Assembly: GCA_001600175.1 (NCBI GenBank)
Contig: BCJC01000004.1
Coordinates: forward strand, 620,001-684,000
DNA from: Erythrobasidium yunnanense
Lineage: Eukaryota; Basidiomycota; Cystobasidiomycetes; Erythrobasidiales; Erythrobasidiaceae
Reading direction: 5' to 3'
Length of the DNA: 64,000 bases
Shown here in pieces: positions 23,570 through 55,178 of the stretch. Made by a program: the position numbers and the translations under genes. Every line of letters starts with the position of its first letter. The first letter of the stretch is position 1. Under the pieces are notes generated by a model that saw only the letters and a program-made list of their open reading frames with translations, searched no databases and was not told the DNA's origin.

Positions 23570-26500
23570 CTAATGTATCAGACCAGAGCTGACACCCTTG
23601 TGCCGTCTCGCAGCACCGGTGTGGATCTTGACACATTTAGAACCGCTGGCAGATACCGCGTACCCCTTGTTGCAGGACAGGACGACACACTGTCCAGTGG
23701 AGCACCCAACTCCAGACGAATGCCTGATTCGTGTGCAGTCGAAGCCTTCGCCAGTCGAGGCACAGCCTCCGCAAGACTCGACCGCCGATGAGGTATCCAA
23801 GCATTCATATCCTCCGGCGGAGTGTGCCAGAGTGCTTGCATTGTCCTGTGATTTGGAGAAAGTACTGAAGCTTGCAGACCCTGCAATGGGGCAGGCAGTT
23901 TCACCGGCAGGGCATAGGGTAACCGGCTTCTGAGCTCGCTTCTTCTGACGAGGAGCCGCCGACGCTTTGAGTACACAAGCGCCGTTGACAGAGTTGTAGA
24001 GACTGGTGCAGGTCACAGTGCATTGTCCATTTGAGCAGGTGGCAGAGTTGGCGACATATCCACTTCCTGCGTTCGCGGCACAGCTGTACTGATACGATCC
24101 ACAGCTGGAAAAGAGCAACACTGTTTGAGTATAGAACCTTTGCCAAAATACAGACATGTTCGCTTACTTGAGGACGTCATTGTAGGCCCTCTTACAGACG
24201 TAGTCTATACAGATCGCTCCCGTGACACACGTGTTGTCATTGCCGGGCGGGGCGGTCTCAGCACCGACACCGCATTTGGAGCCAACCGGAAGACCAGCAG
24301 AGTCTGTGATTATATATGTAAGTCTCGTCAAAGCGAAAACTGTGCAATCGACTCACTTGACGAAGGCGCGTAGCAAGTGTTGTAGGTGCACAGAGCACCT
24401 GCAATACCGATCTTCTTCACGCAGTCGGCGGCTGTAGAACAGGTAGCTAGAGCCAGATCGCCGTCAGTAAAGGGTTCTTCACACTCGCTCATTAGAACCC
24501 ACCTCTGATGCAGCCTCCACTTCCGTTGGGCTGAGCGCCGTCTTTGCAAGCCGAAACGCAAGAGGTCTTGTCGGCTGACAAAGTGTAGCCACTAGAGCAG
24601 GAAAGAACACATGCGTTGTTTTGGCAGGTGCTTGTTGCAACGCCGTTTCCGACTGCGGCGCATGTGTTTCCAGTTCCTCCACAGTTCTTCGGGTCTGAAG
24701 CTTGAGAAACACAACTCTGACCTGCGGTCGTTGTGGTGAGCGTGTACCCGTTCGAGCACGACAGAACACAGCCATTGTTCTGGCAGACGCTCGTGGCAAC
24801 GCCGTTTCCTACTGCTGGACACTTTTTGTTGGGGCCACCGCAGTTGTTGATGTCCGAGGCTTGTGACACACAGCTACTGCCATCAGGGGAGAGATTGTAG
24901 CCAGAGGAGCATGTAATAACACAATCGCTGTTGCTGCAGCCACTGGTTGCGATGCCGTTCCCAGTCGCAGGGCAAACGTTTCCGTAAGAGCCGCAGCTGC
25001 AAACAAGTACGTCTTAGCTCATTCGGCAAGTTGGCCACATGACTGTCTTACTTTTTAGGATCTGACTTGAAGACGTTGTAGCAGACGCCGTAATAGCAGA
25101 CCAGGTTTGCTGCACATGAATTGTCTGCTCCTGATCCTGTGCTGCCGCAGGCGCTGCCTTCAGAAGCACCAGCAGTATCTGCGAGGTTCACGTCACGTTA
25201 GAGGTGGCTACAAGGACACAAGCACATGCCTTTCGCTTACTGGAGGAAGGAGTGTAGCATTGCCCCAAGTAACACCCGGTTGCGGCGGTACCTATTTTGC
25301 TCTGACAGTCTGCACTGCTTAAGCAGGTGTCTGACACATTGAGAACATGATCAATCAATACGTTCCTCTTCATAATTGATTAGAAGGGCGGGGTGGACTT
25401 ACATCTGAGACATTGACCCAAGCTGTAGTAGGTACCGTCTTTGCAGCTGGAGGTACAGGCGCCGTTCGAGGCTGAATAGCCAGCATCGCACTTCACTCCA
25501 CAGACCCTGCGACAAAGTTGTGAGTATATAGCAAACAAAATGCATGCAAAGTAGCGCACCCTCCAGAACATGTTGGAGATCCGTTTGCGGGATCTGGGCA
25601 AACTGTACCAACGGCTCCGCAGTTGTTGATATCGTTGATGGAGATACAGCTTTTCTTGTCGACGGATTGGGAATAGCCGGAATTGCAGGTCACTTGACAG
25701 GATGAGTTGGAGCATTGAGCTCCAGAGACACCAGTGCCAGTAGTAGCGCACTTCTGCCCGACACCTCCGCAGTTGTTGATGTCGTTGGTGGTACTGATAC
25801 AGCTCTTCTTATCGGTTGATTGTGCGTAGCCGGGGCCGCAGGTGACTTGACAGGATGAATTCTGACACTGCGCGCCTGTGACTCCTGTACCAGTCGTGGG
25901 ACAAACTGTTCCAAGACCTCCACAGTTGTTGACATCATTGGTCGTAGAGACACAGCTCTTCTTGTCGGTGGACTGTATATAACCGGAACCGCAGGTGACT
26001 TGACAGGATGAGTTTTGACATTGCGCGCCTGTAACTCCAGTACCAGTCGTGGGACAAACCGTTCCAAGGCCGCCACAGTTGTTGGGATCATTGCTAGTAG
26101 AAACACAGCTCTTCTTGTCAGTCGACTGTATGTAATTGGGACCGCAGGTGACTTGGCAGGCCGAGTTCTGGCACTGCGCGCCTGTAACTCCAGTACCAGT
26201 TGTGGGACAAACTGTTCCAAGGCCTCCGCAGTTGTTGGGATCATTGCTAGTAGAGACACAGCTCTTCTTGTCGGTTGACTGTATGTAATTGGGACCNNNN
26301 NNNNNNNNNNNNNNNNNNNNNNNNNNNNNNNNNNNNNNNNNNNNNNNNNNNNNNNNNNNNNNNNNNNNNNNNNNNNNNNNNNNNNNNNNNNNNNNNNNNN
26401 NNNNNNNNNNNNNNNNNNNNNNNNNNNNNNNNNNNNNNNNNNNNNNNNNNNNNNNNNNNNNNNNNNNNNNNNNNNNNNNNNNNNNNNNNNNNNNNNNNNN

Positions 26501-28336
26501 NNNNNNNNNNNNNNNNNNNNNNNNNNNNNNNNNNNNNNNNNNNNNNNNNNNNNNNNNNNNNNNNNNNNNNNNNNNNNNNNNNNNNNNNNNNNNNNNNNNN
26601 NNNNNNNNNNNNNNNNNNNNNNNNNNNNNNNNNNNNNNNNNNNNNNNNNNNNNNNNNNNNNNNNNNNNNNNNNNNNNNNNNNNNNNNNNNNNNNNNNNNN
26701 NNNNNNNNNNNAAGGCCTCCGCAGTTGTTGGGATCATTGCTAGTAGAGACACAGCTCTTCTTGTCGGTTGACTGAATGTAATTGGGACCGCAGGTGACTT
26801 GGCAGGATGAGTTCTGGCACTGTGCGCCTGTAACTCCAGTACCAGTTGTAGGGCAAGCTTTTCCTAGACCGCCACAATTGTTGGGGTCATTCGTAGTGGA
26901 TACACAGCTCTTCTTGTCGGTTGACTGTATGTAATTGGTACCGCAGGTTACTTGGCAGGCTGAGTTGACACATTGAGCGCCGGAGACACCGGTTCCAGTA
27001 GATGGACAAGCTGTTCCCGCTGTCCCGCAGTTGCTGGCATCGCTGGAGAAGGCTGAGGAACACGTATAGTTGATGCAGATGAGGCCAGCAGCGCATTGGT
27101 TGTCATCGCCGGCAGCGAAACCTTGACTGCCACAAGGCGTGCCGGCTGCCTGACCACCGGTATCTGCAGAAGAGGGAGGAGGGGAAGATCATCAGCCCAT
27201 TGTACATGATTGAAAACCACCGCCAGAGCTTACTGGAGGATGGCGTGAAGCACGCATTCTGCGAAGGTATGCAGTAGGAAGTAGAGACTCCGCCCGGCTT
27301 ATTGACGCAATCTGCAGTAGTCTTACATCCGTAGTCTGTAAGATCAAAATTGATCGTAAGCCTAAATCTAAATCGTTATCGTGGAATATAGTACTGACAG
27401 CGACCACAGTTGCTAGTTGTCGGATCTGTGCCATCCTTGCAGGTAGCAACGCAGGTGGAGCCAGAAACCGTATAGCCGGAGTTGCAAGTGATTCCGCACA
27501 ACTTGTTTCCACAGGTTGCGCTACCGTTGGCGGGCGATGCGCAGACTTTTCCAACACTTCCGCAGCTGGAAACACAGAGACACGTCAGATAAGTCTCGGG
27601 ATATCGGTAGAGCCTTTGACGCACTTGTTGGGGTCGATGGAAGTATTGATGCAAGTTTTGCCGTCTGATCCCAGGACTTGTCCAGACGGGCAACTGACGG
27701 TCGTGGTGGAAGTACAGGCGCCGTTCTTCGCTGTGAAGCCAGAATTGCATGTGATTCCGCACCCTCTGTCAGATGTAGAAGTCGTCAGCCGGAACGCTTC
27801 TTGTACATCGCGATGCAGACTTACCCATTGGTACAGGTCGGAGACCCGTTGGTAGGGACCGCGCACTGTCTGCTGAGTTGTCCGCAGTTGTTGACGTCGT
27901 TGTTGAGGTTGACACATGTCGTGCGGTCCGCAGACAGAGTAAGACCGGATGCACAGTTGAGGGTGCACAGAGGCAAGCTGCCATCGGAGCTACGTGTGTA
28001 CCCATCTACGCAAGTAGCATAGCATTGATCTCTGCCGTTGTTGTCTTGACCACATCCGACTGTGGCTGTCGAGGTACCGATCTGATTCAACAGGGTCTTG
28101 CATTGGTTATTGTAGGTTTGGTCTCGGCACCTGCAGCGCGAGAACACTCTTAGCTATCGAAGAAATCTGATCGAGATGTGAACCACAAACACGAATGAAC
28201 CATAGTGCCGCTTCTCGAGATCACGCTTTTGAATCGGGTTGTATAGAACCGGAGGTCGATTTTCGAGGCTGAGACCAGCAACGCCAAGGGCAGCGATGCT
28301 ACCTGAGAGCGCCGCAAAGAGTGAGAATGATCTCAT
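23570..28336 (-). CDS. Secreted cysteine-rich repeat protein with C-terminal CPL1-like domain
   Basis: Seen: a signal peptide (MRSFSLFAALSGSIAALGVA) followed by KR-type sites, then many introns and a very Cys-rich body. N-terminal units such as RCRDQTYNNQCKTLLNQIG lead into CGITCNSGYTVSG-type modules. A tandem block of 51-residue units surrounds the N gap, and a second subfamily of about three units (VGNGVATSTCQNNACVLSC) follows. The C-terminal part has GYECLDTSSAVESCGGCAST and CVVLSCNKGYAVSASGSKCV, the pattern of CPL1-like domains. Known: Cryptococcus Cpl1 is a secreted, capsule-linked protein reported to act on host macrophages; other family members are mostly unstudied. Inference: an extracellular, disulfide-rich surface or secreted protein whose length can vary with repeat number. 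The exact exon list and total length cannot be given because of the gap. Missing sequence inside the gap is an assembly matter, not a defect of the gene. Confidence 0.82.
24550..25010 (-). repeat. Second tandem repeat subfamily of the CPL1-like gene
   Basis: About three units of roughly 50 residues, each with C-x-x-VGNGVATS-x-CQNN-x-CVLSC-S-x-GYTL and an SCVSQASD-x-x-NCGG linker. The shared Cys spacing with the 51-residue block shows common origin, but the residues have diverged more, so this block is older or less homogenised. Confidence 0.75.
25600..27020 (-). repeat. 153-bp tandem repeat (51 residues) in the CPL1-like gene
   Basis: Units repeat every 152-153 bp; the CTCTTCTTGTC landmark recurs near 25649, 25800, 25952, 26105, 26258, 26751 and 26904. 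Each unit encodes a module with IQSTDKKSCVST, NDPNNCGGLGTVCPTTGTG and VTGAQCQNSSCQVTCG. Neighbouring units near the gap are almost identical, while those at the block ends differ more, as expected from recent unequal crossing-over in the middle. Confidence 0.9.
26297..26711. other. Assembly gap of 415 Ns inside the repeat
   Basis: A run of N interrupts the 153-bp repeat. From the landmark at 26258 to that at 26751 is 493 bp, which is not a multiple of 153 or of 3. The written length therefore cannot be the true one if the frame is kept: in-register lengths would be 381, 534 or further steps of 153. Confidence 0.97.
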
Positions 28337-42309: not shown

Positions 42310-43437
42310 TTACCCTGACGGTACAGCTTCTCTCAGTTCGAGACGTTTTGATGGAGCATACTTTCGCAAGGTCTGCTGAATAACTTCGCAGTCTTCGTAT
42401 GCCTGTAAATTTTGCCGCTTCTCGACTAAAAGACCGCGAACCTCTTTGATGTACTGACGATCCTTTCGCTTGTCGGTCGTTAGACACTCCATGGCTTGGC
42501 TTGTCTCCAAGATATCCTTGTCGAATTTTGGGATCAATTTGCGGATGAGAGAAGCTCCCGACAGGTGTCTGGCAGCGGGCGGCGATACCACCTTTCCTTG
42601 CTCGATGTTTTTGCGATACACAGTCAGTTCATGATGTGTATGACTTGCATACGAGTTGTATTGAACTCGATCTTCGGCGGATGTCACGGGGAACAGAGGT
42701 GACATGCGTTCTAGAGCATGCTCCAGCTCCCTTCTGATCGCCCCCAGCTTGCAGAACAAGCGGTCTTGGGAGCGAGTGTCTGCCGCTGCCATGGGTATGA
42801 AGACACTGGAAGTTGCAGACGATCTTCTCTCTTTCTTGCCCTGCGCCCAGTACTCTATGTCCTTATCGATGTCTTTCAGCGTTGCCTTGTGCTTCTTGCC
42901 GGGATCATCGGAGGACTCTGAGGCGGAGGACTGCGAGGGACAGGAACTCAAGGAGCGTGCTAAGCTAGGCGATCGGGGGGAAGCGGAGATCGACCTCTCT
43001 ACGAGCACGTCCGAATCAACTTGCGCTGCAGAAGCTGATCTGCTGGACTGAGGCTCTGAGGATATTGATCGAGAGCTGACGTGGGCTTTCTGACTGGGCC
43101 GAGAGGACATCATATGATATGCCGATCTTGCTGTGAATACTGAGCAGATGATGCTTGGCCACGAGCGGAAGTGACAGCGCTTGAGGGGACAAAGCTGTCT
43201 TTTGAGTCGCATTCGGAGGCGCTGTCTGGTGAAAGGTATACTGACGACAAACGGACAAGTGTCAGACAGAGTGGGCGAAAAGACTGAGGAGGTACTTTGG
43301 TGAAGTCTCACATAGTCCATGTCGCTGAACGCATGCCTAAGGAGACAGCCGGCTGACAGGGTCATTCCTCTGTGAGGATTGCCTCGGTAGGAGAGCACGG
43401 CTTGTTGCGTTGATGTCGGAGCGAGCAGCTTAGACAT
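42310..43437 (-). CDS. Hypothetical Ser-rich protein with coiled-coil C-terminus (start uncertain)
   Basis: Seen: an uninterrupted frame of 375 codons from ATG 43437 to the stop at 42310. The middle is Ser-rich (SISASPRSPSLARSLSSCPS), followed by a basic patch (DDPGKKHKATLKDIDKDIEY) and a charged, helix-rich C-terminus (ELEHALERMSP; FDKDILETSQAMECLTTDKR) that may form coiled coils. I do not recognise it. The ATG at 43437 overlaps the stop of the upstream ChaN-like gene by 8 bp, and a good intron signal (GTGAGA...GTCAG, about 43314-43244) lies in the first part. The true start may therefore be 43113 (MMSSRPSQKAHV), which would give 267 residues. Coding status of the C-terminal two thirds is fairly likely; the N-terminal part is open. 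Confidence 0.5.
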   Translation of the reverse strand: MSKLLAPTSTQQAVLSYRGNPHRGMTLSAGCLLRHAFSDMDYVRLHQSTSSVFSPTLSDTCPFVVSIPFTRQRLRMRLKRQLCPLKRCHFRSWPSIICSVFTARSAYHMMSSRPSQKAHVSSRSISSEPQSSRSASAAQVDSDVLVERSISASPRSPSLARSLSSCPSQSSASESSDDPGKKHKATLKDIDKDIEYWAQGKKERRSSATSSVFIPMAAADTRSQDRLFCKLGAIRRELEHALERMSPLFPVTSAEDRVQYNSYASHTHHELTVYRKNIEQGKVVSPPAARHLSGASLIRKLIPKFDKDILETSQAMECLTTDKRKDRQYIKEVRGLLVEKRQNLQAYEDCEVIQQTLRKYAPSKRLELREAVPSG

Positions 43438-44500
43438 CTACCGCTTCATAGACGATGATGCCATCCGCTATCGATAGCTCTGAGGCGGGTCTAGAGTCGC
43501 CTTGTTGAGTTGCTGATTCTGTTCTCCAGTAGCCGCCCTCATCTGGCTTGGTCGATATCCTTAGGATTGCTTCCTTCTCGCAAGCTCTTATGCGCTCCGG
43601 GACGCCCAGTCCAAAATCGCAATGTCCGCTTCCACAGATAACGAGAAGTAGCTCTTTCTTGTGCTCCCCGCCGTTGCCGTCTTCTTGTCTCTTCTGCATA
43701 GCGTGTACCTCTTCATCGATCTTCCACGCCATGACTGTGTCTTTGAAAGCCTGAGCTGCGCTAAGGCCATCCTGTTTGATCTCGCTTTCTTCCTCTAGAA
43801 CAGGCTTGTTCCCTCCGCTTATCATAGCTTTGATATATGCCGAGTGTTCTCTTGAGACGTGTAAATCTTTCCATCTATCCTCGCTGAACCCGCTTAAGAC
43901 GCCTGTGTTATGAATTCGTTCGTTCGTTTGTATGCCAGGGATCCCTTCGCGCATGATGATTCGCGCCCATTCTCTAGGTGGGAACCCAGCGACGATCTCA
44001 CTATTCACGTTCTCAAGCTCTCTTGCAAGCTGCAAGAAAGGCAGATATCCGAAGGTCGTCAATCGAAATCCTTCGCTCGATTTGCCATACTCAGTCTGTA
44101 GTGTCTCAGCGTCTCCATCTTTCGCGAAATTGCGTAGAAGAGGCTGTTGTAAGAGATTGAAATGCTCCATCAGGATCGTGACTTCGTAGTTCAAAGGAGG
44201 GGTCGCGAGCGCTTTTAGCAGACTGAGCTGGGCAGCTAGTACACGAGGCTGATGATGTTGTTCTCCAAAGATGATACATCGTAGAGGATGCGCAGACTGT
44301 TGTTGCTTTTCTTGCACGAAATCAAGGAGGGTGATGGATGGTTCGGCGTTGGCGTACTCGGACCAGGACACCTCGGTAGCATGGGAAGAGAGAGCAGCTG
44401 AAAATGTTATATGGGAAGAAGAGCGGACTGCGGTGGGAGATAAGCGCGAGACGAGTGACGAGACGGACATCGGTGTGATCGACAGAGGGTCAAGGTGCAA
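43430..44500 (-). CDS. ChaN-like haem-binding / Tiki-superfamily protein
   Basis: Seen: a single 356-codon exon. LRCIIFGEQHHQPRVLAAQL carries the GE-x-H motif, MEHFNLLQQPLL and FPPREWARIIMREG follow the family order, and LLLVICGSGHCDFGLGVPER is the C-terminal GxGH-x(4)-GxP motif. Known: bacterial ChaN is an iron-regulated lipoprotein that binds two haems, and the wider family shares a fold with erythromycin-esterase-type and Tiki proteins; fungal members have no firm role. The N-terminus (MHLDPLSITPMSVSSLVSRL, basic and Ser-rich) could be a mitochondrial presequence, best starting at the internal Met. It overlaps the downstream hypothetical gene's first ATG. Lacking introns is unusual here. 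Confidence 0.75.
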   Translation of the reverse strand: MHLDPLSITPMSVSSLVSRLSPTAVRSSSHITFSAALSSHATEVSWSEYANAEPSITLLDFVQEKQQQSAHPLRCIIFGEQHHQPRVLAAQLSLLKALATPPLNYEVTILMEHFNLLQQPLLRNFAKDGDAETLQTEYGKSSEGFRLTTFGYLPFLQLARELENVNSEIVAGFPPREWARIIMREGIPGIQTNERIHNTGVLSGFSEDRWKDLHVSREHSAYIKAMISGGNKPVLEEESEIKQDGLSAAQAFKDTVMAWKIDEEVHAMQKRQEDGNGGEHKKELLLVICGSGHCDFGLGVPERIRACEKEAILRISTKPDEGGYWRTESATQQGDSRPASELSIADGIIVYEAVDV

Positions 44501-44648
44501 GCAACTACGAGATACGAGAAACGGAGTAACAAAGCCGCAATAGCTGTACTGTCAAGGTGATAAAACCTGCTTGCTACCGGGCTCTGTCTATGCTACATGA
44601 GATTCCTTAACGTGCCAATTTGGCAGCGTATGCGTGTGTATTGTTTCA

Positions 44649-45823
44649 CTAGGCTTGTTCCCCTACAAAGCGTTTCCAGTTCTCCTTCAGCTGTTTCACA
44701 GCATGTTCTTTCTCCCATCCCTTCGCGTCGCAGACAATACCCAAGATCTCCCAAATCCTGACCTGGCTCTTTCTGACATCCGGGAAGTCGCTCTCTACCA
44801 ACAATCTCTTATCCGGGACTGCTCGTATGAGATCCTCTAACCTCGGCAGGCGTGCATTTATCGTAGTCGAGAAGGAGAAGTATAGTCTGTCTTTATGTAT
44901 AGCTATCATTCTTCCGATAGTCTCTGCTGATCCGCCGAAAGAATGTAGGTCTATTTTACTCTTGCTGTTCATCCATTGTTCGTCTTTAGCTAGCGATTGG
45001 AGTAAGTCGACTGTGGCCCCCTGAGCTTGCACTGAATGCATCGAGATATTCCGATCAAGCTCGAACGCTACTTCCAGCTGAGCTTTCAGAAGCTTCAACT
45101 GATGCTCAATAGGAGTCTGGAGCTTCGTAAGTCTCTTGCGAACCCTCTCACCAGTCTCCCAGTTTGTTTTCGGTTCTTGCGCAGGTTTAGGTATCCGGAA
45201 TGACTTGTCGAGTCCTACTTCGCCCAGCATAGCGTTCGCGTGTGCCTCTAGGTAGGGTCGAAGCGTCGTTTCCAGGAAGGTCGAGAAGAGTGTAGGATCG
45301 GGGAACGAGTCTAGGAGCTCTGAGACGGAAGGATCGGAGGTATCGTCGAAATAGTCTGGGAAGACATTACGGTAGTGTGTTATCTTGTCAGAAAGTATGT
45401 CCTCGAAGGAGATGTGATGCGACCACCATGGATGTAGGCCTGCCGGAACAGACGAGCTGGGATCAGAGCAAGGTTCGCACCGATCTTCATTCAGGAGAGG
45501 CACATACCGAATGCAGGAAGGATCTTTCGCGGATAGTCTGATGCCAATTTCTCCACCCTGCCTTGATCGCCGAGATTCGAGCTCATTGCGCAAAGCTACT
45601 GCGATGTTACGCGTTCGCAAGTCAGCGAACCTCTCCAATGTACTCAGAAAATGTTGTTCAGGCTCACCTTGCCTAGGGAGATCTTGCCCGTCTCATCGCG
45701 ATACTGCTCTGAGAACTGCCTGTAGTCTGTAGGATGTGCATGGACGTCTGTGAGTTGGTTCAGACATGCTTCATCAGGCTCTTCGCTCCATCCAGGGAGC
45801 TCTCTTGATCCGAGCAGGCTCAT
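44649..45823 (-). CDS. TatD-related metal-dependent hydrolase (Scn1/Cut9-interacting type)
   Basis: Seen: start MSLLGSRELPGWSEEPDEAC at 45823. Exon 1 carries LTDVHAHPTDYR, the H-x-H metal motif at the first strand of the TIM barrel. It ends ISLGK and joins, after an intron, to VALRNELESRRSRQ. Later SKIDLHSFGGSAETIGRM provides a metal-binding His, and VPDKRLLVESDFPD the Glu-x-Asp end of the barrel. About 365 residues. Known: TatD proteins are metal-dependent nucleases; the fission yeast relative Scn1 was found with the anaphase-promoting-complex subunit Cut9. Role here is unproven. It is divergent from the epimerase gene. Confidence 0.82.
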
Positions 45824-46147: not shown

Positions 46148-47875
46148 ATGCCCGGAAAGCCCGTCGTTCTCAGTGAGTTTGGGGGAGATAATCATGTCAA
46201 CGGAACTCAATGCTGATAGCTGTCTGACGCTCGACAGTCGTAAGCTATACGCTCATGAAGCCCTACAGTCCATGATCAATCCGCTGACTCTCGCCGTTCC
46301 GCCCTTTCTCCCTGAACTTCTTGATCTCAGACGTGCGTGCATGACTTTCCCTAATAAACGCAGACCCTAACTGATTCTGTGTCTTCAATGCAGCGGAGGA
46401 GCTGGATACATCGGTCAGTCGAGTCTTTCAAATACCGTTGAGACACGAGTCGCGGTAGAAACGTGATGATCTCGATGAACTCAGTTCTAACAGTCGCATT
46501 CTTGATACAGGCTCCCACGTCGTTCTATGCTGCCTCCTCGCAAACAAGTTCCGCGTCTGTGTGATTGAGAAGTAGGTCGAGCATCTATGGGCATCTTCCG
46601 CCTAAAAGCGTGTACTTAACGACCGTACGATCAGCTTCGACAACTCCTTCCCCGAGGCACTCAACCGCGTATCCAAGATCGCGCTCTCGGAGCTTCCCAG
46701 CAATGCTTCCGAGCAAGAGAAAGCCGATTCACAAGTCAAGGTCTTCAAAGGAGACTTGAAGAACGCTGCAGACGTACAGGCCATCTTCGACTACTACAAC
46801 AAGGAAGGATCTGGAATCTGGGGTGTCATCCATATCGCTGCTTTGAAAGCTGTTGGTGAATCGGCAGAGAAGCCTATCGAATACTACATGAACAACATCT
46901 CTGCTACTATCGGACTCTTCGATGTGAGTTCGCTTGCTTGCTACGTCATGCTGCGCGTTCTTGAAGCTGACGACTTCCTCCTATGCTTCCAGATCATGCG
47001 CAAGAACAACTGTTTCAGACTCGTCTACTCTTCCTCCGCCACCGTCTACGGTGCACCCAAGCAGATTCCCATTCCCGAGTCTTCGCCCATGCAAGCCGAG
47101 TCCGTGTACGGCCGCACAAAAGTGATGGCCGAGCTCATCATCAAGGATATTGCCGACTCTGATCCTCGCTGGAGAGCATTGGGATTAAGGTACTTCAACC
47201 CTGCTGGAGCACACCCCTCTGGCCTCATTGGTGAAGACCCTCATGGAAAACCGGGAAACTTGGTTCCGTTGCTCGCACAGATGGCTGTTGGAAAACACGC
47301 AGAAGCTGGACTGAAAGTGTTTGGAAACGACTACCCTACTCCAGACGGTACTTGTGTCGTGAGTCCTCTCCTCGCTGTCCATTCTAATTGAAGTGACCTG
47401 ACTTAGTTCGGGGTGCCAGCGCGATTACATCCACGTCATGGATCTTGCAGGCGGCCACATTCTCTGCCTCGAAGCTCTTGACCGAGACGACATCTACGAA
47501 GTGATCCAATCGTCCGGCGGGTCGTCCGGCTTCGGCGGCTCAGGCGGAAAGTACAAAGCCTACAACTTGGGTAAAGGCAAGGGAATGTCCGTCTTGAACA
47601 TGATCGACGCAATGAAGAAAGCATCTGGCTTCGACTACAAATTTGAGATTATCGGACGCAGAACGGGAGATGTGCCTGATCTCACCGCGGACCCAGCTGT
47701 TGCGGAGAAAGAGCTCGGATTCAAAGCTAATAGATCCCTAGAGGAGATGTGCAGAGATCAGTGGAATTGGCAGTCCAAGAACCCTAACGTGAGTCGCGAA
47801 CCCTTCTTTCCGTTAGCGATTTGTCTTTCTATGCTGACGATTAATCATATTTTGGCTATACAGGGATACAACTAG
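46148..47875 (+). CDS. GAL10: UDP-glucose/galactose 4-epimerase, with two 2-nt exons needed
   Basis: Seen: MPGKPVVL at 46148-46172, then [52 protein letters not shown], the active-site pair in [11 protein letters not shown] (Tyr-x-x-x-Lys), [26 protein letters not shown] and a final WQSKNPNGYN-stop. Exons: 46148-46172, 46238-46239, 46331-46332, 46394-46413, 46511-46571, 46635-46923, 46993-47358, 47420-47788 and 47864-47875. The family needs V/I-T between VVL and GGAGYIG; that is met only if TC (46238-46239) and AC (46331-46332), each flanked by AG and GT, are spliced in. Known: the enzyme interconverts UDP-glucose and UDP-galactose with tightly bound NAD. No mutarotase domain is attached, unlike budding yeast Gal10. 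About 375 residues. Confidence 0.9.
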
Positions 47876-48453: not shown

Positions 48454-49450
48454 CTACTCTATGACCAACCTCTCCAGCCTGTCTACCTGTTTATCCCTCA
48501 TCGCCTCTTGCCATCTCATCAATTTCGCGCTTTCATGCAACTGGAATCCGAATATCCTAGGTCTGAACCTCTCCGCTTTTACCGCAGCGTTTGCTCCCCC
48601 GGTTGCAGCTCCTCCATGCTGTCCCCCACCTCCTGCTCCCCTACTCAATCCTCCTTCGCCTGCATTGTTGTTCGTGCCTGAGTTGTTCCCGTCTCCTGCA
48701 CTGCTCGTACTACCTGAATCTCGTGCATTGTTTGCAGACCCAGAACCAGAAGCCTGTGCAGCAGCTGCTGCAGCTGCATTATTTGCGAATCCCATACTTG
48801 CAGAATTCGCTCCCCCGGGGACTGATTTGGGCACTATTAATTGCGGATACACCATGAGGAGCATATGGGGGAACGTGCTTCCAAAGTATGCACCATCGAT
48901 CTGTCCATGTCGTGTAGATTTTGGCGAATAGATATCTTCGCATCTCTGGCAGAAGAGCTTTACTGCTTTTTGATAAGGTATGTCACTTAACCCCACGGGA
49001 AGTAAGGGTTGTCCATAGCATAAGACGCGTGGACAGCGCCCGAAATCGTATTTCTTATACTTGTCAACCATCTTTGCTAAGCCCCGAGAGGTGATTATGA
49101 ACCGCGCGTGGATGAGGCCGTATAAGTGGCGCGCGGAAGCTTCGATCTGATCTCGTAGCTCGTCGTTCGGTTCGTCTTCTGCAGTTTCACATCGAGGATC
49201 TATGTCAGCCTAAAATCACAAATGAAGCGAGGAGAGAGAGTATATGCGCACCCAAATTATCTGTAATCATATCTAACGCCTGTGTATAGTGATGCACTTC
49301 TCCATTCAGGCCCGTCAAGTTGAATCTATCGAGGATGTACTCTTCGTCGACTTCGCAAAAGTATTCGTTTCCCTTTGTCGATAGGAACCATGATATCCAT
49401 GTGTTTGAATACTCTGAATCGGAGCCTGTGCTGAGGTCGTCCACTGCCAT
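48454..49450 (-). CDS. CKB1: Casein kinase 2 regulatory (beta) subunit
   Basis: Seen: the N-terminal part [40 protein letters not shown] and [14 protein letters not shown], an intron, then [20 protein letters not shown] and the zinc ribbon [18 protein letters not shown] ... [15 protein letters not shown] (four Cys), [19 protein letters not shown] and the end [20 protein letters not shown]. Known: the beta subunit dimerises through the zinc ribbon and assembles the CK2 holoenzyme. Oddity: roughly 80-90 residues of Ala/Gly/Asn/Ser low complexity (about 48800-48560) split the conserved C-terminus. A longer N-terminus is possible: an open Gln/Ala-rich frame up to about 49790 could join through a GTGCGT intron ending at 49445, placing the start further upstream. 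Confidence 0.9.
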
Positions 49451-50082
49451 CACACGCAGATAAGTGTCAGCAAGAGGGTTTCTCCTGGGTCTGCCTGTTG
49501 TCGGACAGCCTTGCAAGCCAGGCTGGCCCTGACGCTGGATGTAAGGGATGTAAATGGGACGCACTCTCTTGATCTTGTTGCTCGTCTTGCTGCTCCTGAT
49601 TGTACTGCGCCGCTATCTGCTGTACTGCCTGTGCTGCCGCTGCTGCCTGAGCTGCTGCCTGTTGGTTCTGCTGGATGTATGCTCTTTTCGGTAGTCCTTT
49701 GATGTCCCTTCGACTGTTGTCTCCTCTATCTGTGCCCTGCTGCTTGTTGGTGGATGGAGCAGCTGGCGCCAGGATGGACGGCCGGGCTGATGCCTGATGA
49801 TGCTCGGAGGAGCCTTGATTGGGGTTTAGAGGGATGTTATGGTGAATAGATCAACGTAGATGCTGCTCTGAAGCTTTGATCAATGCTTGGTGCTCGGAGG
49901 TGTTGGACGGGAGCAAGGGATCAGCAAGCAGGGAGCAAGAAGGTAAGAGCAATGGTATACGACGGAATAGAATAGAAACATCAAGTGTGATGTGACATTG
50001 CAGTGATTGTGCTTCCCAAGCCTTCGACCTCCATTCTTATCTTATTCCAATCTTCACTCTGACTGTGTAATTCTACGATAAG
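49451..50082. other. Divergent region CK2 beta / SMC4, with a Gln/Ala-rich open frame
   Basis: 632 bases. On the minus strand about 49580-49790 reads RAYIQQNQQAAAQAAAAAQA and further Gln-rich sequence. It is open to a donor-like GTGCGT and in phase with the CK2 beta exon, so it may be an upstream coding exon; no start ATG was found in it. The remainder should be the SMC4 and CK2 beta promoters. Confidence 0.45.
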
Positions 50083-53000
50083 ATGCCTCCTCGACGAGCA
50101 GCAAGTACAGCAGCTGCCACCAGGAAGAAGGCTGCTGCCACCACCAAGAAGCGGGCAGTCGTAGAGAGCAGCGATGAGGGAGAGGGAGAGGAGCAACACC
50201 AAGTCGCAGTAAAGAAGGAGCAGCAAGAAAGCGACAATGACGAAGACGACGATGATTCAGATACTGTAGAACAACCTGTCAAGAAAGGCAAAGCTACTGC
50301 AACGACTCGCAAAGCGCCAGCGAAAGCCCCAGCCAGATCCAGCGTAAACAACAACACCAACAATACGCGCAAGGCAGCGCCGAAGAGAGGCAGCAAGGCC
50401 AAAGTAGAGCCTGTAGAACAGCAAGAAACGGATAATGATGAAGAAGTGTCTACGGCCCAGCCTGCCCGAAGAGAACCCTCTGAAAGCGCGTCCAGTATGG
50501 CAGACCAGACATTCCAGGACGCACAGGATAACAGCAACGAGCATGCAGAACAGCAAGAAGAAGATATCAAACCTCCTCCTCCTGGTCAAGGTGCTCCCGC
50601 GACTCGAGAAGACGCGTCCGATTCCGCGTCCTCTCGCGCATCTTCGCCTGCTCCATCCACTCCCGCCGCCAATGATGACGATGCAGAACCAGTTCTACCA
50701 TCTTCTCAGCCTGCGATAGCTGCGCCGGAGGATGACGAAGACGATTTACTACAAGCTACGATCCAGCCTGCTCCTATCGCGCCGGCAAAAGTGGTGCTAC
50801 AGCCCGTAGTAGTCGATGAAGGGCCGAAGAAACGCCTTGTCATTCATAAACTCGTACTTGTAAACTTCAAGTCGTATGCTGGAAGACAGGAAATCGGGCC
50901 ATTCCACAAGGTGCGCTGAGCGTTCGCCCACCACAAAGGGATGACTATGAATGCTGAAGCGTGGAAGATTAGTCCTTCTCGTCCATTGTTGGGCCGAATG
51001 GATCGGGCAAATCGAACACTATCGACGCACTCCTCTTTGTATTCGGGTTCAAAGCTACAAAGATGCGACAGGGGAAGGTGTGCACTATTTCTCATTCTGT
51101 TCATATGTGCTAGGCTGATCCCGCACTCGAATTGCCAGCTCAGCGAACTCATCCATAACTCTGAAGGAACAGAAGATATCGATTCATGCAGTGTCGAAGT
51201 GTGGTTCCGGGAGATTATCGACTTGGTAAGCTCTCTATCATGCTGCCGGTTGCAGATTCCCCTCTGATCCTCATATGCTTTCGCGCAGCCCGGTCCAGAC
51301 GACTATGAGATCGTCCCTAACTCCACACTCGTCGTAGCCCGCGAGGCTTCCCGGAACAACTCTTCTAAATACACGATCAACAAGAAAGGCTCCACTTACA
51401 AAGAAGTGCAGACGTTGTTGAAAGGAAGGGGGATAGATCTGGATCATAAGAGGTTTTTGATCCTCCAAGGAGAGGTAGAGAGTATTGCGCAGATGAAGCC
51501 GAAAGCGCCTAATGAGCATGAGGATGGCCTGTTGGAATATTTGGAGGATATCATCGGGACATCGAGCGTGGGTCCTACCTTCTCTTGATTACTTGACGGA
51601 AATTGACATCTTATGATTATTGTTCCGCAGTACAAGGAGCCTATTGCGGATTACCTCAAACAAGTAGATGAGCTGAACGAACAACGCACAGAAAAGACAA
51701 ATCGCGTAAAGCTAGTGGAGCGAGAGAAGTCTGCCCTCGAAGCCGCTAAGAAAGAAGCCGACAGCTACCTCCGAGATCAGAACGAGTTGATACACCGTCA
51801 GAACGAGCTGTATCAGCTGTATCAGCACACGTATCAGCACAACATCACTGTTGCGACAGAGGACGTCACTAGCGCAACAGCTGCGCTGGAACGGGAACAG
51901 AGTGAACAAGCTGGTATTCGCGCCGAAGTGCAGGAGTTGGAGAATGAGCATACAACACTTCTGAACGACGTGAACCAGTTGGAGAAACACATGACTGAGG
52001 TCAGTAAAGAGTTGATAGCATTCGAGAAGGAGGATGTACAGATGCAGGAAAAACGCAAGCATCTAAGTACAAAACTCAAGAAATTGAAGAAGAGCATAAC
52101 GGACGACTCGCATGCTAAGAGCGAAGCTTCGAGCTCATTCAAGAACTATTCTGAAGACATCGAAAAACTAAGAGATGAATTAGGTACTCTTGAGAAGAAT
52201 TTAGCTAAAGAAGAAGCCGAGTTGGAGAAGATCTGCGATGGATTGAAAGACAAGACATCTGTATTCACGAGGCAGATCGATACTCTGCAAACAGATCTAC
52301 AGCCGTGGTTGGATAAAGTGGCTACTAAGAAAGGGGAGATTAACTTGAAGAAGAACGAGATGGATTTATTGAAGGAAAAGAGCGAGAGCGTGAAGAGGAA
52401 TTTGGATGAGGCGGAAACGACGGAGAAAGAGGTCAAGAATGCAAATGAGGAGCTGGAGGAGAGATTGGATGGATACAGCAAAGAAAAGCTCGGAGTGGAG
52501 AAGATGTTGGGCAAGCTGAAGACGGAGCTGGAGGTGAGCACGATCTTGAGTATTAGTTGATAATTGCTGAACCATAAGAGCTCTGGTCAGAAAATCACAA
52601 CGCAAGACACGAAAGCGCGCACTACGGCGTCGGCTGCGAGAGCCAAAGTCGAAGAAGCAAAAGCCTCGCAGGCTGCCAGTCGCTCGAAGGGAGATGTGCT
52701 TTCGAGCTTGACCAAGCTTAAAGACCAAGGGCGCTTGAATGACTTCTACGTGAGTGGCCCAGTCAGGAGGTTGTGTTATAAGCCAGAGAAGCTGAGGTGG
52801 TGGACGTGCAGGGCCGGCTTGGAAACCTTGGCCGCATCGACGACAAATACGATGTAGCCATCTCTACGGCCTGTGGAGCTCTCGACAATCTCGTCTGCGA
52901 GACAGTAGCAGGCGGGCAAGCGTGTCTCGAAGTTCTCCGGCGAAACAACCTGGGTCGAGCGACTATTCTCTGCCTGAAGGCGCTCAACAAGCGTGATTTG

Positions 53001-55178
53001 AAGCCCCTCCAGACGCCCGAGAACGTTCCCAGGCTATTCGACCTCGTCACTCCCAAAGATCCAATCTTCGCTCCTGCTTTCTACCAAGTCTTGCAAAACA
53101 CACTCGTAGCTGATAACCTGGCACAAGCCAACCGTATCGCATTTGGAGGCACTAAACGATGGAGAGTCGTCACGCTTGATGGAAAGCTTATAGATGTGTC
53201 GGGAACGATGTCTGGCGGAGGTAATCGAGTCGCAAGAGGTGGAATGAGCAGCAAATTCAGCTCGGACGAAGAAGCTACTCCTGAAGCTATTGCCCGACTG
53301 GAGAAAGATACAGCTAAAGCAGAAGATACAGTGAAAGTCCTTTCTGAAGAGAAGATGGAGAAAGAGCGAGAATACAATGAATTGCAGAGGAAGATACCCG
53401 AGATCGAGATGAATATCAGCAAGACGGAGATGGCTGTACGGGCTGGAAAGAAGAGGATCGAGGAAGCTCAGAAACGGATTCTAGAGCTGAAAGGACAGAA
53501 CAAACAACCTCAAGGAGACGATGTGAAGCGCATCGCAAGCCTCGAGAAGGATATTCAGAACCTGACGGATGAGCTCTGGGCACTCGAAGAGAAGAGGGAC
53601 AAGATCCAATCTGAGATCAAGTCTCTGCAAGACAAGATCCTCGAAGTCGGAGGTGTCCGCCTTCGCTCTCAGCAAGTGAAAGTCGAGGGAATCAAAGAGA
53701 TGTCAGACCACGCAAACGACCAGCTTACCAAAGCAGAAGTCGGCAAAGCGAAAGCTGAGAAAGATCTCGTAAAACTTGAGAAGAACCTTAAAGTGAATGC
53801 GCTAGCTGTGGAAGAGATGGAAGAAGACCTGGCTGCGCTTGAGAAGAGTATCAAAGAGAAGAGTAATGCACTGGAACATGTTAGGAAGAATGTGGAAGAT
53901 GCGAAAGAGGTCCTGGAGGAGAAGAAGGAGGAACTGAATGAGATGAAAGCACTACTCGACGAGAAACAGACGGAGATGAACAAGTTCAGAGTGAAGGAGG
54001 TACGTAGGAATCAAAGGAATTGAGCATGTTAGCTGACTGGAGTCATGGCAGGCTGAATTGGCTGAGAAAGTCAAAGCTGCGAAAGCGACGCTTGCGGAAA
54101 ACACAAAGTCACTAAATGCAGTCATCAAGATGCTCGAGAAGCTAGAGCTCCACGACATCGAGGAAGATGACGATGATGAAGAAGAGCAAGCTGCCAGAGA
54201 CCCGGAACAGCAGCAGGCGGAGAAGCCTGCAAACGTCCTTCAAGTCTTGGCAGAGGAGGATCTAGAACGGCTTAATGCCGGTGCTCTCAAGGGACAGATT
54301 GCCGTCCTGGAAGGTGAGTGTTTGTTAGCATCTTTGTTGACACAGAAGCTGATTTCCTTTGTCTGAAGAACGCATTCAACAAGCCAAACCGAATCTCGCC
54401 GTCCTGAAAGAGTACAAGAGACGAGAGAAGGAGTTCCTTGAACGAGCACAAGAGCTCGAGCGCGTCACTCAAGAACGCGATGCCACCAAGCAGAAACATG
54501 ATGATATGCGCAAACAACGCTTGGAGGAATTCATGGTCGGCTTCCAGATCATCAGTATGAAGCTGAAGGAGATGTATCAAGTGCGTTCGAGTTCATTTCT
54601 CCTACTGGAACAGGTGGGGAGTTGGGCTGATGAGGGGATTTATAGATGATCACGATGGGCGGAAATGCGGAACTCGAGCTTGTCGATTCATTGGATCCGT
54701 TCTCGGAAGGAATTATCTTCAGCGTCATGCCGCCCAAGAAGTCATGGAAGAATATCTCCAATCTGTCTGGAGGTGAGAAGACTCTATCGTCTCTAGCGCT
54801 GGTCTTCGCTCTGCATGTTTACAAAGTATGTTTGCATTTCATTACTTGCGAGACGTTGCTGAAAGTTTGGCTAGCCAACGCCGCTGTACTTCATGGACGA
54901 GATCGATGCTGCTCTGGACTTCCGGAACGTCTCGATTGTGGGACACTACCTGAAGGAACGGACGAAGAATGCCCAGTGAGTTGCGGTATAGGTTCCTCAC
55001 TTAACTACTGCTGACAGAACATGCTATCAGGTTCATTATCATCAGCTTGCGAAACAACTGCTTTGAATTGGCTGCCCGGCTGGTCGGGATCTACAAGGTC
55101 AACAACAGGACGCGCTCAGTCGTCATTGACAATCATGAGCTATCTCAGATTGAAGATACACCAGCTTTGGTGCGGTAG
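50083..55178 (+). CDS. SMC4: Condensin ATPase subunit SMC4
   Basis: Seen: a long disordered, charged N-terminus (MPPRRAASTAAATRKKAAAT...), then RLVIHKLVLVNFKSYAGRQE, Walker A SIVGPNGSGKSNTIDALLF, the Q-loop region FLILQGEVESIAQMKPK, coiled coil one, a hinge with FYGRLGNLGRIDDKYDVAIS and SGTMSGGGNRVARGG, coiled coil two, the signature NLSGGEKTLSSLALVFALHV, Walker B YFMDEIDAALDFRNVS and the end IDNHELSQIEDTPALVR. Roughly 1,500 residues over about 12 exons. FKATKMRQGK and KAPNEHEDGLLEYLEDIIG identify SMC4 rather than SMC2. Known: with SMC2 and the CAP subunits it compacts mitotic chromosomes. The ATG follows a short leader; it is divergent from CK2 beta. Confidence 0.95.

Follow-up and report, generated by a model that had tools for sequence, protein, structure and literature searches.

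The analysed window, a stretch of 64,000 nucleotides from Erythrobasidium yunnanense, contains a UDP-glucose 4-epimerase gene at positions 46148-47875 of the plus strand, with nine exons and 381 residues. Membership in the UDP-glucose 4-epimerases (GalE/GAL10 epimerase) is indicated by the match to the TIGR01179 (galE) profile, 366.8 bits against a cut-off of 262.3, and by the near full-length alignment with the solved epimerase 3enk_A, which runs across residues 3-380, GGAGYIG loop included (E 1.5e-99). The nearest named relative is the protein of Cystobasidium minutum (81 %). The neighbours at 43430-45692 and 48454-49209 are both on the minus strand; one side of the epimerase has a protein with a ChaN/Tiki-like haem-binding domain and a TatD-type DNase, and the opposite side a casein kinase II regulatory subunit.

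The gene is intact beyond its 5′ part. The 5′ end (46148-46571) is a cluster of small exons, with predicted sizes of 25, 2, 2, 20 and 61 nt. The predicted features are listed here with splice-site scores from the model described in the next section.

46148-46172, plus strand: exon 1, 25 nt, ATG CCC GGA AAG CCC GTC GTT CTC A; MPGKPVVL and base 1 of an Ile codon, ending in phase 1; homologue support from P0001 (MSAKPVVLITGG) and P0005 (MSSKPVVLITGG)
46173-46237, plus strand: intron 1, 65 nt; donor GTGAGT (6.44), acceptor GACAG (4.73); branch-like motif CTGAT 21 nt or CTGAC 10 nt before the intron end
46238-46239, plus strand: exon 2, TC, 2 nt; bases 2-3 of the Ile codon ATC; flanks ACAG and GTAAGC
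46240-46330, plus strand: intron 2, 91 nt; donor GTAAGC (8.50) and acceptor CTCAG (7.25), the strongest of the three introns; single CTRAY branch-like motif, CTGAC, 43 nt before the intron end
46331-46332, plus strand: exon 3, AC, 2 nt; bases 1-2 of the Thr codon ACC; flanks TCAG and GTGCGT
46333-46393, plus strand: intron 3, 61 nt; donor GTGCGT (5.37, weak), acceptor TGCAG (3.04, weak); branch-like motif CTAAC 23 nt before the intron end
46394-46413, plus strand: exon 4, 20 nt, C + GGAGGAGCTGGATACATC + G; base 3 of Thr, GGAGYI and base 1 of Gly; the NAD-binding glycine loop, based on the family alignment and 3enk_A
46511-46571, plus strand: exon 5, 61 nt
46635-46923, plus strand: exon 6, 289 nt
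46993-47358, plus strand: exon 7, 366 nt
47420-47788, plus strand: exon 8, 369 nt
47864-47875, plus strand: exon 9, 12 nt; GYN and the stop TAG; sequence from 47864, GGATACAACTAG

The predicted spliced junction, GTTCTCA/TC/AC/CGGAGG, would appear in a cDNA read as the 20-mer GTTCTCATCACCGGAGGAGC.

The two dinucleotide exons were proposed to bridge a gap in the reading frame. The next recognisable coding sequence after exon 1 is C GGA GGA GCT GGA TAC ATC G, from 46394, and two bases are wanted upstream to fill its first codon; a direct join of 46172 to 46394 is out of frame and runs into a stop at codon 33. A sequence-only reading of the locus had placed the end of MPGKPVVL at 46172 in phase 1, TC at 46238-46239 and AC at 46331-46332 between AG and GT flanks, and a 20-nt GGAGYIG exon starting at 46394, separated by introns of 65, 91 and 61 nt with the donors GTGAGT, GTAAGC and GTGCGT. 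All of these were found in the sequence at the positions given, the GGA codon proper beginning at 46395.

Both dinucleotides are short enough, and flanked by AG and GT as expected, to be counted as ultra-small micro-exons (at most about 15 nt). They are also needed for the frame and the conserved motif, since skipping leads to a stop at codon 33-35 and a single parse restores the motif. In computed translations, a stop is reached at codon 35 without exon 2, at codon 35 without exon 3 and at codon 33 without both, which bears out the earlier statement that skipping either dinucleotide breaks the frame, and retention of intron 1, 2, 3 or 4 gives a stop at codon 23, 21, 17 or 34. Exons 2, 3 and 4 together measure 24 nt, so skipping all three stays in frame and gives a predicted protein of 373 residues without the NAD loop.

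Such fragility could suggest a pseudogene, or a gene that is usually mis-spliced while epimerase is supplied from elsewhere, and 9 of the 12 alternative products computed do end in an early stop. However, the protein as a whole shares 78-86 % identity with its five closest relatives, the one at 86 % sitting on a 1,260-nt cDNA-like contig, and among the best-scoring candidates of a genome-wide search (20.9 Mb, 10 contigs) no second copy was found, all four epimerase matches falling within this gene. We regard a pseudogene as exceedingly improbable. The gene is very probably an ordinary, functional UDP-glucose 4-epimerase whose first coding stretch would be cut by three short spliceosomal introns, leaving two constitutive 2-nt exons.

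Splice sites and alternative joins

We enumerated all parses in which introns begin with GT or GC, end with AG and measure 30 nt or longer, with at most three internal exons, and searched the products for the family pattern (M, three residues, K/R/P, at most two residues, two to four of V/I/L, T/P/S, GGAGYI). Exactly one parse matched under these rules, 25/2/2/20 with TC and AC, so the earlier claim that only these dinucleotides supply Ile-Thr holds under broad rules. None of the variants covered, with a single 4-nt exon, a 1+3 or 3+1 split, GC donors or a different donor for exon 1, yields the family motif.

Splice sites were scored with a model built from 97 introns of the same genome, with the epimerase held out; these training introns were chosen automatically, without transcript support, and were sought at 45-130 nt and found at 49-129 nt (median 68). 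A first intron collection, based on long open flanks, gave a mixed set of just 38 unique introns and was dropped. The model scored 14 GT dinucleotides between 46141 and 46413, and the three that reached 5 or more (46173, 46240 and 46333) are precisely the donors of the parse; the next best GT scored 1.51. The acceptors are less telling. Unused AGs before 46220, 46261 and 46364 score 6.0, 5.2 and 4.7 and match or beat two of the three used acceptors, so the parse is distinguished by its donors and the motif rather than by its acceptors. On these grounds the reading with TC and AC is supported: no other canonical parse that we found would restore the family motif, and this one leaves none of the three strong donors unused.

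The donors had been described as good. All three do score at least 5, but GTGCGT of intron 3 is weak, at the 12th percentile of the training introns, and the acceptor of the same intron lies at the 3rd percentile. This weakness is not disqualifying, as introns 5 and 7 of the same gene have similar or weaker acceptors (2.20 and 1.31). Intron 2 is without a good branch-like motif near its acceptor. The lengths of the three introns are near the training median. RNA folding of 46148-46413 was unremarkable in stability (z 0.67, with 147 of 200 shuffles equally or more stable), and we therefore claim no structural aid to splicing.

A second search ignored the motif. It kept exon 1 and the last exon fixed, accepted GT donors, required every intron to span 40 nt or more, and permitted no more than two internal exons with a combined length of up to 28 nt. 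It added three other frame-restoring parses, namely CT (46220-46221) with AC, giving Thr-Thr, CCCTACA (46261-46267), giving TLH, and CCCTACA with ACGTGC, giving TLQRA. In every one of them, one donor or more scores about 0.2 or less, beneath all 97 training introns. The first two were weighed as rival joins. Their products, VVL-TT-GGAGYIG and VVL-TLH-GGAGYIG, are back in frame, reach the normal stop and score 364.6 and 360.0 bits with TIGR01179, against 366.8 bits for the TC and AC product and far above the cut-off, and their acceptors (6.0 and 5.2) are good. Nevertheless, their donor scores are 0.2 and -2.0, neither join makes use of the strong donor at 46240, and Thr stands at the hydrophobic position before the loop in none of 139 homologues. 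We consider either join very unlikely.

The frequency of such parses by chance was estimated by shuffling the interior of the 221-nt interval between exons 1 and 4 with dinucleotides kept, allowing at most two internal exons that must spell Ile-Thr. With any GT and AG accepted, a parse appeared in 45 of 20,000 shuffles and in 92 of 19,993 real 200-nt genomic segments. When donors had to score 5 or more and acceptors 3 or more, the counts fell to 0 of 20,000 and 2 of 19,993; these cut-offs were set after the real scores were known, which makes the quality counts somewhat flattering and leaves the any-site counts unaffected.

Fungi mostly splice by intron definition, in which short introns are recognised as units. 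At the epimerase, the three introns would each be recognised singly in this way and removed sequentially, because the splice sites flanking a 2-nt exon probably overlap too closely for joint occupancy. Intron 2 may leave first, as it has the strongest donor and acceptor, which would create a transient 4-nt exon TCAC; this order is a guess. In the final product TC would complete the Ile codon and AC would open the Thr codon directly before the NAD-binding GGAGYIG loop. Similar reasoning on stepwise removal is given for a 1-nt exon of Arabidopsis in PMC4674806, and for plant micro-exons PMC8831610 describes reads which suggest that the flanking introns are removed successively, with the downstream intron more commonly the earlier of the two to go. 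Tiny exons can also be spliced other than by intron definition, since the authors of PMC9929638 invoke an exon-definition region for a human minigene in which exons of 2, 1 and 0 bp were spliced without marked loss relative to the natural 4-bp exon. The sequence-only reading had held that exons this small challenge exon-definition models. The challenge is less dramatic than claimed, given the prevalence of intron definition in fungi, the proven 1-nt exons of plants and Fusarium, and the spliced 2-bp minigene exon of PMC9929638.

A nested arrangement would also produce stepwise removal: one larger intron would be excised in steps, as in a stwintron or in recursive splicing, and the 2-nt "exons" would be by-products. 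Three adjacent introns in a fungus call this to mind, as stwintrons have been described in several fungi (PMC6616335). However, in a stwintron an internal intron interrupts a splicing signal of the external one, whereas all three introns here carry their own complete donor and acceptor. TC and AC also lack the donor motif at the exon start that marks recursive-splicing exons, and removing the 221 nt entirely, TC and AC included, shifts the frame and gives a stop at codon 33. A nested arrangement is highly doubtful, and two separate 2-nt exons are the preferred reading.

The glycine-loop junction in relatives

We fetched 142 homologues, the best 120 of each of two lists, of which 139 have a readable loop. 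The two residues before GGAGYIG are VT in 107 of these, IP in 13, IT in 11 and VA in three, with VP, VS, GT, RT and WT found once each. The family had been said to require one hydrophobic residue and Thr at this place; the hydrophobic residue stands and Thr is usual (VT 107/139, IT 11/139), but it is not always present, as the 13 proteins with IP show. The close relatives P0001, P0002, P0004 and P0005 (78-86 % identical) read VLITGG or ILITGG. Their sequences are probably cDNA, because the longest contigs, of 1,260-1,904 nt, hold a protein of 380-383 aa. The annotated protein of C. minutum has an intact motif and is uninformative on its exons.

Orthologous fungal DNA was sought with three query proteins in viral contigs and in bacterial and archaeal genomes and was not found there. 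The first query of the viral contigs recovered 27 GalE loci at 27-47 % identity on IMG/VR contigs and the two other queries no relative, and the search of bacterial and archaeal genomes gave at least 596 matching stretches, from which 80 loci were kept, all with bacterial titles.

A check of the motif flagged eight of the 142 homologues, and five of these are named Pucciniales or Mixia proteins (P0014, P0026, P0030, P0036 and P0057) with wrong or missing residues before or in the NAD loop. At the motif, the annotated epimerase reads ILGTGG in Melampsora larici-populina, ALTRTGG in Mixia and ELSWTGG in Puccinia striiformis; part of the loop is missing in P. striiformis PST-130, and the loop is missing in Austropuccinia. 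The other three flagged proteins are P0064 (rust-type, with an internal start), P0086 (starting at VTGG) and P0132 (Schizophyllum, a plain T-to-S change). For the 93 of 142 proteins with an NCBI source, clades were counted by hand. The motif is broken in five of nine rust or Mixia proteins and in none of the 84 others (Fisher p 2.4e-6), or in one of the 84 if the Schizophyllum change is counted (p 1.4e-5); as the sequences are related, these p-values are only a guide. Intact at the motif among the nine are two Melampsora americana proteins, Cronartium and Puccinia coronata, the last being odd further upstream.

These annotations also bear on the possibility of an assembly or sequencing error in E. 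yunnanense, by which bases were lost or changed and the true junction would be simpler, such as a single intron or a single 4-nt exon. The frame gap is known from a single assembly. On the other hand, a random error would not produce two extra strong donors, each 2 nt past an acceptor, that jointly spell Ile-Thr, and the same place also fails in five of the nine annotated rust or Mixia proteins. An error is highly improbable as the source of the gap.

Three of the five broken proteins keep Thr and have a wrong preceding residue (G, R or W), at the very codon that is completed by TC in E. yunnanense. This is compatible with an overlooked 2-nt exon followed by an exon that carries Thr; other small-exon layouts would fit as well. 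The partial or complete loss of the loop in the two remaining proteins could likewise result from gene finders passing over such an exon. The motif defects of rusts and Mixia are probably annotation errors caused by tiny exons, and their recurrence at the same place hints at an old micro-exon. Taken further, the TC exon might be an ancient fixture across Pucciniomycotina (rusts, Mixia, Cystobasidiomycetes), and a second intron, gained later in the present lineage, might have detached 2 nt more; the result would perhaps be the smallest constitutive exon cluster known. We offer this history tentatively and think it rather unlikely.

Tiny exons elsewhere and other features of the window

Exons of 1 nt are known from APC11 and VPS55 of plants (PMC4674806 and PMC8831610). 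These resemble the epimerase exons in being ultra-small, frame-essential and overlooked by annotation, and the APC11 exon of Arabidopsis is constitutive; they differ in being single and proven by RNA-seq and RT-PCR, whereas the epimerase has two adjacent 2-nt exons, in a fungus, predicted from DNA, the protein family and cDNA-like relatives. Another parallel is the 1-nt exon of CYP621A in Fusarium (PMC12940212), which is fungal and was first inferred, as here, from a phase mismatch within a conserved motif. It is one exon, conserved in 20 orthologues and covered by SRA reads in two species. The 4-nt exon of human MPC1 is likewise tiny and of a length that is not a multiple of three, with minigene versions of 2, 1 and 0 bp also spliced; it is human and single, and PMC9929638 describes neighbouring introns that contain an exon-definition region. 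For Arabidopsis, Drosophila and humans, PMC12940212 cites individual exons of the same size class (2-5 bp), with no indication in the portion seen that any two are adjacent. Neighbouring micro-exons are represented by a 5-nt and 12-nt pair in plants, fused in other algae and read by the authors as gradual intronization (PMC8831610 and PMC11096116). That pair totals 17 nt and the epimerase pair 4 nt.

In the accessible text of the open-access literature on micro-exons, fungi, basidiomycetes, Puccinia and 4-epimerase we found no report of two consecutive 2-nt exons, and the portions seen of the literature on Cryptococcus genomes and non-canonical splicing held nothing on exons this small. Single ultra-small exons are already known; two adjacent 2-nt exons, which by the sequence evidence are very likely real, look like a new extreme. 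If confirmed by cDNA, they would be natural back-to-back 2-nt exons in a housekeeping gene, and would allow a clean test of the removal of short introns, and of its order, in a case where the splice sites flanking an exon overlap. They also carry a warning, as gene finders and read aligners handle such exons badly, and the wrong epimerase residues in several rusts and Mixia suggest a similar blind spot.

A crude scan of 264 kb for single micro-exons of 1-15 nt gave 89 frame-consistent and 184 frame-inconsistent candidates, equal to the chance ratio of 1:2. Stricter site cut-offs left 29 and 54, again at chance level, and stricter coding flanks left zero candidates of either kind. The scan gave no indication that exons of this kind are frequent in the genome; as it is blind to two micro-exons in a row, a wider habit is neither supported nor excluded by it.

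Elsewhere in the window, a tandem array with a 153-bp unit occupies 25595-26296 and 26725-27017, within minus-strand open frames (25493-27188). The 455-residue frame at the array has a Pfam CPL1-like match (35.5 bits vs a cut-off of 27.4). The G+C content falls to 0.419 at 26001-28000 from about 0.49-0.53 elsewhere in the window. Strand bias is strong at 50001-54000, with AT skews of 0.20 and 0.30 and a GC skew of 0.205 in the second half, and an open frame at 52782-54023 on the plus strand matches the SMC hinge domain.
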